From Alphaproteobacteria bacterium (GTDB lineage Bacteria > Bacteroidota > Bacteroidia > Chitinophagales > Chitinophagaceae): a stretch of DNA of 34,682 nt. Positions 14,399 through 28,646 of this stretch are shown piece by piece. The DNA is taken from contig JASGCT010000006.1 of the NCBI GenBank assembly GCA_030053915.1, positions 30,013-64,694 of the forward strand. The letters run 5' to 3'. The position numbers and the translations under genes were made by a program. Below the pieces are notes generated by a model, which was not told the DNA's origin, made no database searches, and was given only the letters and a program-made list of their open reading frames with translations. Numbering within the stretch: the first letter of the stretch is position 1; every line of letters starts with the position of its first letter.

Positions 14399-15346
14399 AT
14401 GTTTGGTATTTCGATGGATTATGTGATTTTTATGGTTGTTTTAATGTTAGCTTTGGTAATTGATATGGGTGTTTTAGAAAGAAAAAATAAAGTATTTACA
14501 ATAAAAAAAGCCTTGCGTTTAACCTTATTTTGGATTATCATCTCAATAATTTATTTTAGTTATACATGGATTACCAAAGACAGAGCGACTGCATTATCTT
14601 ACTTAAGTGCCTATATAACCGAGTGGAGTTTAAGCGTTGATAATGTATTTGTGTTTGTAATTATTATTGGCGCTTTTAAAATTCATGTTAAATTTGAAGC
14701 CAAAGCCTTGTTATATGGGGTTTTATTAGCCATTGTTTTGAGGGTGTTATTTATAACCTTAGGCGTTGAACTTATTGAAAAATTTCATTGGATTTTATAT
14801 TTTTTTGGTGCATTTTTAATTTATACGGGCATAAAACTTTTAAAAGGCGACCAAGATGACCAAATGGATCCATTAAATAGCAAGGTTTATGTAACGCTTA
14901 AAAAATGGTTCCCAATTGATGATTCGGATGGTAATGGTAAAATATGGTTTAAAAACCCAACGAATGGAAAAAAAATGTTTAGCATTATTTTTGTTATAAT
15001 CGTGATGTTGGCTTTAATTGACATTGTTTTTGCTTTAGATTCTATTCCTGCGGTGTTGAGTATCACGCAAGATAAAATTATTGTGTATTCGTCAAATATA
15101 TTTGCGGTTCTTGGGTTAAGGTCTTTATACTTTTTGGTTAAAGGGGCGTCTCAAAAATTTTATTATTTGCCTTATGGTATTGCTTTTGTGTTAGTTTTTA
15201 TAGGCTTAAAAATTATGGTTGAAGATAGTATGCATGGGTGGGTTTCAAAAGAGTCGTTGAGTCTAATTTCTTTTATTTTTATTATATTTTGTATTTTTGG
15301 TTCTATTTTTTATTCTATTTTTGTCAAAAAACCTAAATCAACTTGA
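14399..15346 (+). CDS. TerC-family integral membrane protein
   Basis: 315 residues with seven to nine hydrophobic helices. TerC hallmarks are present: acidic membrane residues in EWSLSVDNVFVFVIII (~80-95), the LIDIVFALDSIPAVLSIT segment (~208-225), and GLRSLYFLVKG. TerC/Alx proteins are implicated in manganese efflux and in metal loading of exported proteins; tellurite resistance is only the historical name. No tellurite (ter) operon is nearby. The gene overlaps the next one by 4 nt (TTGA), so the two are translated as a unit. Confidence 0.9.
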   Translation: MFGISMDYVIFMVVLMLALVIDMGVLERKNKVFTIKKALRLTLFWIIISIIYFSYTWITKDRATALSYLSAYITEWSLSVDNVFVFVIIIGAFKIHVKFEAKALLYGVLLAIVLRVLFITLGVELIEKFHWILYFFGAFLIYTGIKLLKGDQDDQMDPLNSKVYVTLKKWFPIDDSDGNGKIWFKNPTNGKKMFSIIFVIIVMLALIDIVFALDSIPAVLSITQDKIIVYSSNIFAVLGLRSLYFLVKGASQKFYYLPYGIAFVLVFIGLKIMVEDSMHGWVSKESLSLISFIFIIFCIFGSIFYSIFVKKPKST

Positions 15347-17463
15347 TTACATATTCGTTATCTAAGATTGCTGAAATTGTAGATGGGACTCTTATCCAAA
15401 ATAACCTAACTTGTCTAGTAACAGAACACCTATTTTATGATAGCCGTATGGCTACCACTACAAATATTAATAGTTTGTTTTTGGCTTTTAAAACCCCACG
15501 AAGAAACGGACATGTATTTATTGAAGATCTTTATAATAAAGGTTTTAGGCAATTTATGATTGACGAAAAGAACTTTGTAAGTTTTTTCCCTCAAGCCAAT
15601 TTTATTGTTGTAAATAATGTGCTTGAAAGCTATCAAAAATTAGCTTCATATCATCGCCAACAATTTAAGATTCCAATTATTGGAATTACGGGAAGTTATG
15701 GCAAAACATTGGTTAAGGAATGGTTAGCCCAAATGTTAGAAGCGAAATTTAATATCATTCGTTCTCCCAAAAGTTATAATTCTAGTATTGGGGTTGCTCA
15801 GAGTATCTTAGAAATTTTACCAGAACACGAGTTAGGTATTTTTGAAGCGGGTATATCTACTAAAAATGATATGCACCCATTATACAATATGATTCAACCA
15901 GATATTGGGATTTTAACAAAATTAGGTGATGCTCATAATGATGGTTTTGCTTCCATGCAAGAGAAAATTATGGAAAAACTGATTTTGTTTTCTAAAGCCA
16001 AAGTATTTATTTATAACGAAGATGACCTCGAAAAAAACGGATTTTCGACAGATTTAAAACTGTTAGGATTAAAAAATATTGCGCAGGCTTTGAACATCAG
16101 TTTTGTTAATAAACAGGCGTATTGTTTTGTCCAGGAACTCTATATTTCTAACCAATTCAGCACAATAATTTTGAAAATAAAAGGCAAGATATATCCATTT
16201 CAAATTCCATTTACAGATCGGTTGAGCCTTGAAAATATACTATTAGGAATTGTAGTTTTAATTTATTTCAATATGTCTGGGCAAGACGTTCAAACCCGTC
16301 TTTATTCTTTAAAGCCAATCTATAATCCAACATTACTTGCTCAAGCTAGTATTGGTTATTACGTGCAAGCGCAGCAATTTCATTCTACATATTTGGTGTT
16401 TGAAACCTCAATTTTTAAGCAAAATTTACAAAATATTTTAAATGCATTGCATCCTAAAACAAAAGTAATGGCTGTGTTGAAAGCGTCTGCTTATGGTATG
16501 GGAAGTATAGAAATTGCTAAATTATTAGAATCAGAGGTTAAAATTGCGTATTTATCGGTAGCCTACATTGATGAAGCAATCGCTTTAAAAGAAGCAGGCT
16601 ATTTAAAACCGTTGATGCTTATGAATGTTGAACCCATGCATTTTGAACAAATTATACAATGTCATATCGAACCTGAAATATACAGTTTAGCCTTATTGCA
16701 ATCATTTATTGAATTTATTAAAAATAAGCATTTGCAAAATTATCCAATTCATTTAAAATTTAATACTGGGATGAACCGATTAGGGTTTTCTGAAACCGAT
16801 TTAGACGCTTTAATTAAAATCGTTTTAAACAATGCAACACTCATTAAAATAAAGTCTATTTTTAGTCATTTAATAGATGGAAATAATAAAAATCTATCAT
16901 TTAAACAAGCCGAAAGATTGAATTTTTATAGTACTACCATTCAAAAAAGTGTTCAATATAATTATTTAAAACATATTGCGAGTTCAACGGCGACTTTAAA
17001 ATTTAAAGATTTGCAATTTGATATGGTTCGTATAGGTATTGCTATGTTTGGTTTTTCTACATCAAAAATTCCTTTAAAAAGCCCTATTGCCTTGTATTCC
17101 CAAATTGCTCAAATTCATCATTTAAAAAAAGGGGATTATATCGGTTATGGTACTTTGAATAAGGTTAAAAAAGACACGATTATTGCAACCATAAAAATAG
17201 GCTATGCCGATGGTTATCACCGCATTTTTGGTAATGGCAAAGCCTCGATGTATGTTAATGGTTACGTTGCGCCAACTATCGGGAATATTTGTATGGATTT
17301 ATGCTTTATTGATATTTCAGAGATACCAGGCGTTGATTTAAATAGCCAAGTGGAAGTTTTTGGCAAGCATATTTCACTTGAATCTTTAGCAAAGATTGCT
17401 AAAACAATTCCTTACGAGATTTTAACTTCAATTGGTTCAAGAATTAAAAGAACTTTTTTATAA
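15343..17463 (+). CDS. MurF-alanine racemase fusion with MurF C-terminal domain missing
   Basis: 706 residues. The first part is MurF-like (UDP-MurNAc-tripeptide:D-Ala-D-Ala ligase): N domain, P-loop GITGSYGKT (114-122), SPKSYNSSIGV, GIFEAGIS, and a central domain to ~325. The second part (from ~345) is a complete-looking alanine racemase: PLP Lys380 in LKASAYGMG, the GYGTL catalytic-Tyr region, and IGYADGYHR ... GNICMD. Bacteroidota fusions are normally ~800-830 residues. Here only a ~20-residue linker replaces the ~105-residue MurF C-terminal domain that carries the 'INDsYNaD' region. The start is TTG 15343, overlapping the terC stop. D-Ala supply looks intact; the ligase half may be inactive. 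Confidence 0.9.
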   Translation: MITYSLSKIAEIVDGTLIQNNLTCLVTEHLFYDSRMATTTNINSLFLAFKTPRRNGHVFIEDLYNKGFRQFMIDEKNFVSFFPQANFIVVNNVLESYQKLASYHRQQFKIPIIGITGSYGKTLVKEWLAQMLEAKFNIIRSPKSYNSSIGVAQSILEILPEHELGIFEAGISTKNDMHPLYNMIQPDIGILTKLGDAHNDGFASMQEKIMEKLILFSKAKVFIYNEDDLEKNGFSTDLKLLGLKNIAQALNISFVNKQAYCFVQELYISNQFSTIILKIKGKIYPFQIPFTDRLSLENILLGIVVLIYFNMSGQDVQTRLYSLKPIYNPTLLAQASIGYYVQAQQFHSTYLVFETSIFKQNLQNILNALHPKTKVMAVLKASAYGMGSIEIAKLLESEVKIAYLSVAYIDEAIALKEAGYLKPLMLMNVEPMHFEQIIQCHIEPEIYSLALLQSFIEFIKNKHLQNYPIHLKFNTGMNRLGFSETDLDALIKIVLNNATLIKIKSIFSHLIDGNNKNLSFKQAERLNFYSTTIQKSVQYNYLKHIASSTATLKFKDLQFDMVRIGIAMFGFSTSKIPLKSPIALYSQIAQIHHLKKGDYIGYGTLNKVKKDTIIATIKIGYADGYHRIFGNGKASMYVNGYVAPTIGNICMDLCFIDISEIPGVDLNSQVEVFGKHISLESLAKIAKTIPYEILTSIGSRIKRTFL

Positions 17464-25221: not shown

Positions 25222-27441
<2,220 letters not shown>

Positions 27442-27548
27442 GCTAAAAAATATTGAGATTTTTAAAATGAAATTTCTTGTACCCGAAACGATAATTAACG
27501 ATTCATTATTGTCAATAATAAATTATACATCTTTTAAATTTTTTGTTG

Positions 27549-27556
27549 TACATTTG
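27549..27556 (+). promoter_or_regulatory. -7 box of the porin-like gene
   Basis: TACATTTG, 16 nt before ATG 27573; it rules out the upstream TTG at 27543 as the start. Confidence 0.5.
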
Positions 27557-27572
27557 TCTGAAGTTTTTATAT

Positions 27573-28646
27573 ATGAGAATGAAAAATTTACTAGGTTTAG
27601 TTCTTATTTTAGTTGTAAATGTAGGTAAGGCGCAGCTAGATTCAAGTATCAACGTATTGCCGAAACAATCTTTTAAAAATTTAACCGTTTCGGGATATTT
27701 AGATTTTTATTACCGTTACGATTTTAGTAGTCCAAGTAGTAAAGTACCGGATGTTTATATCAATTATACCGATATTAAAAATAATATTGTTTTGGGATTG
27801 GCAAATTTAGCTTTTAAATATGAAAATAAAAAAGTTGAAGGGTTTTTGGAATTTGGATTTGGTAGGAAAGCCGATGATTTTTCGTATGAAGAGAATACTT
27901 TTACAAGCAGAATTTTGAAAAGAGCTTATTTTAGTTATATGCCCAATGAACGATTTAAAATTAGCATAGGGAAGAAGTACACCATAGAAAATTATGAAAG
28001 TGTAGATGTTCCGGATAATAATTTTTATAGTTATACGTATTCATTTTATATAACACCCAATTTCAATTCAGGTTTGTTTTTAAATTATAAATCTAAAACT
28101 GACCATAGTTTTGAATTGGCTTTAACTCAACCATATAATTATTTATACGGCAATTCGGATGATAGATACTTGTCGTTTCAGTATATAAGTCCAGATTTTG
28201 CTCAAAAAACAAATGTTTCTTTAATATTTTTTTACTACAATAAAAATGCGGCTAATTTTTTTTATTTGGCAGAATTAATTCTCACCCAACGTTTTAATAG
28301 TAAATTACAAATGATTTTAGATGTGTCTTATAGTAATACCAAAAATAATGGCGTTCAAAATTTATGGCAAGATTTAGCTTTGTTTTTAAATTACCAATTA
28401 CGACCTAAGTGTTCTATTAATTGGCGAAGCGAACTTTTTAATAGTGTCAATAAAGGATTTTTCCCTGTTGAAAATACTTTAGTAAATACCCATACTATTT
28501 CGGCAAAATTTAAACTTCATAAAAATATTTATTTAACTCCAGAACTTAAATTTGATTTTGCTAATAATAAGATATATAAAAAAACTGAGACGGCGTTTAC
28601 GGGTTTTGATAGTAATTTTTTTCTATCGACTTATTTTGTTTTTTAA
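27573..28646 (+). CDS. Outer-membrane beta-barrel (porin-like) protein
   Basis: 357 residues (ATG 27573; ATG 27579 is equally possible). A signal peptide (MKNLLGLVLILVVNVGKAQ) is followed by alternating aromatic/polar strands ending in Phe, which fits a barrel with a C-terminal aromatic residue (STYFVF). The sequence 'LTVSGYLDFYYRYDF' near the start and the repeated Tyr-rich strands resemble Bacteroidota BBP2-type porins. No plug domain, TonB box or SusD neighbour is present, so it is not a SusC-type transporter. Substrate unknown. Confidence 0.78.
   Translation: MRMKNLLGLVLILVVNVGKAQLDSSINVLPKQSFKNLTVSGYLDFYYRYDFSSPSSKVPDVYINYTDIKNNIVLGLANLAFKYENKKVEGFLEFGFGRKADDFSYEENTFTSRILKRAYFSYMPNERFKISIGKKYTIENYESVDVPDNNFYSYTYSFYITPNFNSGLFLNYKSKTDHSFELALTQPYNYLYGNSDDRYLSFQYISPDFAQKTNVSLIFFYYNKNAANFFYLAELILTQRFNSKLQMILDVSYSNTKNNGVQNLWQDLALFLNYQLRPKCSINWRSELFNSVNKGFFPVENTLVNTHTISAKFKLHKNIYLTPELKFDFANNKIYKKTETAFTGFDSNFFLSTYFVF

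Follow-up and report, generated by a model that had tools for sequence, protein, structure and literature searches.

Layout of the MurF-racemase locus

The window, by which we mean the whole 34,682-nucleotide stretch of DNA that was analyzed, contains a gene whose 706-residue product joins an incomplete MurF ligase to an alanine racemase. The following features were assigned at this locus:

14399..15346, + strand: gene for a TerC-family membrane protein (PF03741), directly upstream of the fusion, which is the gene order of most relatives
15343..17463, + strand: truncated MurF-Alr fusion of 706 aa; begins with TTG, which overlaps the stop codon of terC
15343..15657, + strand: MurF N-terminal domain, residues 1-105, DSR motif retained (89 bits, profile of intact fusions)
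15658..16320, + strand: MurF central (ATP) domain, residues 106-326 (PF08245, 92.5 bits; fusion profile, 224 bits)
15691-15708, + strand: P-loop GSYGKT, residues 117-122 (motif comparison)
16321..16368, + strand: 16-residue stretch YNPTLLAQASIGYYVQ, in place of the ~134-residue MurF C-terminal domain of intact fusions (alignment; PF02875 unmatched)
16369..17460, + strand: alanine racemase half, the genome's only alanine racemase (PF01168, PF00842; TIGR00492)

A Pfam search of the 706-residue protein placed Mur_ligase_M at residues 115-305, Ala_racemase_N at 358-572 and Ala_racemase_C at 583-704, and found no Mur_ligase_C. The best NCBIfam match was to NF008897, with 691.6 bits in two stretches, which is below the cut-off of 804. 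When compared with the MurF model TIGR01143, the fusion scored 169.9 bits (cut-off 288.6) and covered model positions 2-284 of 418, with positions 285-418 missing. The racemase half matched TIGR00492 at 270.7 bits, above the cut-off of 168, with complete N- and C-terminal domains. As originally predicted, it keeps its PLP lysine and tyrosine regions: alignment to solved racemases located KASAYGMG at 380 (PLP Lys 380) and IGYG at 600 (Tyr 602), along with others. The motifs DSR, FEAGIS, AH and EKIMEK are retained in the MurF part, and base composition is even along the whole fusion gene. A single-sequence AlphaFold2 model of the fusion had a mean pLDDT of 33.6, too low to be informative. Elsewhere in the window, we observed a gene for a 734-aa haem peroxidase, probably a catalase-peroxidase (25237-27441; PF00141 in two stretches), and after it a gene for an OmpL-like porin (27543-28646).

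Extent and lineage of the truncation

In an alignment that included ~30 intact fusions of other genera, similarity stops at I326 and restarts at A343. The 16 residues found there stand against ~134 in relatives, a net loss of ~118, and the absent segment is where relatives carry the MRLEL..INDSYNAD and KGAR motifs. Judged by these alignments, the C-terminal MurF domain of the fusion is gone through an in-frame, domain-precise loss in the lineage of this genome. The possibility that the domain is present but diverged was rejected, since only 16 residues are available and the domain profile matches nothing in the fusion. We likewise rejected relocation of the domain: the six Mur_ligase_C domains of the genome all sit in full-length proteins, namely MurE, MurD, MurC, an Mpl-like ligase, FolC and a stand-alone MurF. 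The C-terminal domain of MurF is the part that binds D-Ala-D-Ala, and it closes over ATP (PMC6085368); with this domain absent, the fused half would therefore be without the D-Ala-D-Ala site and half of the ATP cleft.

The absence of the MurF C-terminal domain had been proposed in the original prediction, and both the missing Mur_ligase_C match and the alignment gap between I326 and A343 bear it out. Its estimate of an in-frame deletion of ~100 residues was close to the ~118 obtained here by alignment to MurF-Alr fusions. Two other figures needed adjustment. The link between central domain and racemase is indeed short, but rather than ~20 residues it measures ~33, counted from 'IYFN' up to where the racemase begins to align, with 16 between the aligned blocks; and while the fusion is shorter than its relatives, these are mostly 815-870 aa long and not ~810-830.

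We considered the truncated gene in the context of its relatives. It shares ~40% identity with intact fusions in both halves, and terC lies directly upstream both in this genome and in 15 of 21 intact fusions of the same family whose flanks could be read. Because it has this neighbor in common with most relatives, we regard the truncated gene as an orthologue of the Bacteroidota MurF-Alr fusion, with the same locus and the same descent as far as sequence and gene order indicate. A tree placed the fusion near family f39, whose fusions are eroded (see below). Horizontal acquisition from that lineage was rejected, as terC is placed in the manner of the genome's own family, and the position in the tree is probably due to long-branch attraction.

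The same layout was not found in 195 genomes of the same family, nor in the 104 best matches of a search across 394 genomes of that family; in these sets, apparently complete fusions ranged from ~774 to 932 aa. Of the shorter same-family fusions, two that were checked (G142 and G032) end at contig ends, and the coordinates of several more suggest the same; the 571-aa fusion of G173 lay outside this contig-end check. A scan of genome contigs gave no closer relative of the truncated fusion, and searches of an open-access collection of papers found none that studies the MurF-Alr fusion. The truncated form is a variant of a known fusion.

The remaining MurF part also differs from intact fusions in its nucleotide-binding loop. 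The original prediction had pointed to a P-loop reading GSYGKT instead of GSNGKT, and this proved correct: each of the 47 intact fusions in the comparison carries Asn at this place, against Tyr in the truncated fusion. The four fusions compared whose central or C-terminal domain is eroded or missing have all replaced this Asn, with Tyr in the genome under study and with Val, Ile and Ile in three f39 fusions. Among the six losses at positions that are at least 95% conserved, four (N119Y, Q148S, L153Q and E176D) are in or beside putative active-site motifs, and these substitutions favor a relaxation of ligase function. N119Y alone is no proof of inactivity, because the P-loop of the aligned E. 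coli MurF carries Ser in this position (GSSGKT).

A second MurF and erosion of the fused copy in Bacteroidia

The suggestion that the cell might have another MurF was confirmed by a search of the genome: contig C126 encodes a stand-alone MurF of full length (431 aa) that scores 349 bits, above the TIGR01143 cut-off of 288.6, and retains GSNGKT and KGSR. The other enzymes whose presence was to be checked, MurC, MurD, MurE and Ddl, were also all found, the first three clustered on contig C42 within the dcw cluster and Ddl on contig C124, and the genome also encodes the Mpl-like ligase. The fusion is its single alanine racemase; a second PF01168 protein belongs to the YggS family. Given the stand-alone MurF together with MurC, MurD, MurE and Ddl, normal peptidoglycan synthesis by the standard route is expected in this bacterium. 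The same genes refute, at the sequence level, the idea that the fusion is the only MurF of the cell and that peptidoglycan is consequently altered or absent, and we consider that reading to have practically no likelihood. Loss of the fused MurF would be tolerated because of the separate full-length MurF on C126.

Most of the Bacteroidia surveyed have two MurF copies, one of them fused to alanine racemase, and the fused copy was found damaged or missing in several other genomes. In G221 and in the 0.49-Mb genome G241, the N-terminal and central MurF domains are lost and a C-terminal domain remnant precedes the racemase; the remnant scores 80 bits in G221, and only 12 bits (E 0.014) in G241, where its assignment is tentative. 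These genes (L086 of G221, 1301-2905, 535 aa; L087 of G241, 1357-2901, 515 aa) are the mirror image of the truncation studied here. In three genomes of family f39 (G361, G336 and G235), the central domain is decayed and the C-terminal domain is both shortened and decayed. The f39 fusions (L088, 1996-4266; L089, 1114-3453; L091, 1728-4112) are 757-795 aa long, with the P-loops GKIGKT, GSVGKT and GAIGKT. In four genomes (G249, G339, G286 and G344), no MurF part accompanies the racemase; L095, L096, L097 and L098 are stand-alone racemases of Bacteroidia genomes, 366-385 aa in length. A MurF scoring above the TIGR01143 cut-off was present elsewhere in all of the damaged or MurF-less cases checked as well as in the genome under study, although the match in G344 reads through one stop codon. 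The fused MurF thus appears dispensable in Bacteroidia, and its loss was probably piecemeal and took place on more than one occasion.

Some further features of these genes were observed. Two genomes have two MurF-Alr fusion genes on separate contigs: G220 (C22 and C85) and G411 (C58 and C26), the latter with a listed contamination of 6%. In many genomes (L099-L107), the stand-alone murF adjoins a gene whose product ends in 'YKGGSW.DRAYW..GFRCAM' and presumably resembles gliding-motility lipoproteins of the GldJ/GldK type.

We compared the decay of the two halves of the truncated fusion using positions at least 90% conserved among intact fusions. Of 72 such positions in the MurF domains, 9 were lost, against 21 of 97 for the racemase half (odds ratio 0.52, p = 0.16). 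The opposite was seen in two of the three f39 fusions, in which 33/72 and 25/72 MurF positions were lost (odds ratios 4.6 and 3.2). Terminal branch lengths of the truncated fusion were 1.10 for MurF and 1.26 for Alr, a ratio of 0.87. This test has low power and fails to set the eroded controls apart; the comparison of conserved positions separates two of the three f39 controls. These values suggest that, along the branch as a whole, constraint on the remnant was similar to that on the racemase. The truncated form is unusual in comparison with other eroded fusions because its two remaining MurF domains are as conserved as the racemase half. The deletion may be recent, or the domains may have kept a non-catalytic role; both would fit this conservation.

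Interpretation and comparison with known families

The explanation that we favor, at a probability of roughly 0.87, is that the fusion supplies the only alanine racemase of the cell, carried on two MurF domains that are unable to ligate, while the MurF on C126 covers ligation. The ancestor would have been a MurF-Alr fusion of the Bacteroidota type, and an in-frame loss of ~118 residues on this lineage would have removed its MurF C-terminal domain. MurF activity would then come from the separate full-length enzyme, and the racemase half, with its catalytic motifs kept, would provide D-alanine. With its dipeptide-binding domain missing, the MurF half of the fusion has very probably ceased to work as a ligase, and the complete domains and motifs of the racemase half predict that it is active. 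It counts against this explanation that the N-terminal and central domains seem less decayed than expected of an old dead passenger. The earlier view of the MurF half as a dead scaffold was probably right as to ligation, whereas the remaining domains are no more decayed than the racemase half.

Within the favored explanation, two accounts of the remaining MurF domains were weighed. They may be the passengers of a recent, functionally silent truncation, kept in frame only because an essential racemase lies downstream; we consider this slightly better than an even bet. It agrees with the redundancy of MurF in this genome, with the ways in which other Bacteroidia have eroded or lost one part or another of the MurF half, and with the alteration already visible at the P-loop Asn and further motif positions. 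However, with both domains as conserved as the racemase over the whole branch, decay has hardly begun, and a silent truncation therefore needs a young event on a long branch. Alternatively, the two domains may be kept for a job other than ligation, such as an N-terminal platform for the racemase dimer, or the binding of UDP-MurNAc-peptide and/or ATP in a way that ties Alr to the levels of precursors or to other Mur enzymes. Conserved positions are retained no worse in the MurF part than in the racemase, and the DSR, FEAGIS, AH and EKIMEK motifs survive; both points speak for this account, and fused Mur enzymes have been proposed to work in complexes (PMC6420597). Yet a recent deletion would yield an identical pattern of conservation, four of the six losses at the most conserved positions lie in or beside putative active-site motifs, and other lineages do without the entire MurF half, so that we hold this account only tentatively. 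Its stronger form, in which selection kept a MurF without its dipeptide domain as a non-catalytic sensor or platform on the sole alanine racemase, through binding of UDP-MurNAc-peptide and/or ATP, seems unlikely. Finally, the sequence comes from a single genome in draft assembly (166 contigs, 95% complete), and the deletion could in principle be an artefact of assembly or sequencing. We judge this very improbable, given that the junction is in frame and at domain borders, that it is filled by 16 residues unlike those of relatives, that the missing domain occurs nowhere else in the assembly, that base composition is even along the gene, and that the substitution in the P-loop points independently to a relaxation of ligase function.

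The main use of the truncated fusion is as a natural experiment that addresses why a second MurF is fused to the racemase in these bacteria. Lineages with an intact stand-alone MurF whose fused copy has lost one part or another represent ready-made deletion variants, which may be used to find out if the fused ligase is of importance and if the racemase benefits from the folded domains of that ligase. The fusions of G221, G241 and f39 resemble the one studied here in having an incapacitated fused MurF and a stand-alone MurF that is kept, but the parts they have lost differ from the C-terminal domain lost in this genome.

Among known families, the closest is the MurF-Alr fusion NF008897 (822 aa), which has in common with the truncated fusion its domain order, the ~40% identity in both halves, the terC neighbor and the best NCBIfam match. 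It is characterized by three MurF domains followed by a racemase; the truncated fusion is without the whole third MurF domain, scores below the cut-off and has the N-to-Y change in its P-loop. The N-terminal and central domains align with the MurF family TIGR01143, from which the protein departs by lacking the dipeptide-binding C-terminal domain (model 285-418). The alanine racemase family TIGR00492 is matched completely, above cut-off and with the catalytic motifs, but here the racemase bears a 342-residue MurF remnant at its N-terminus.
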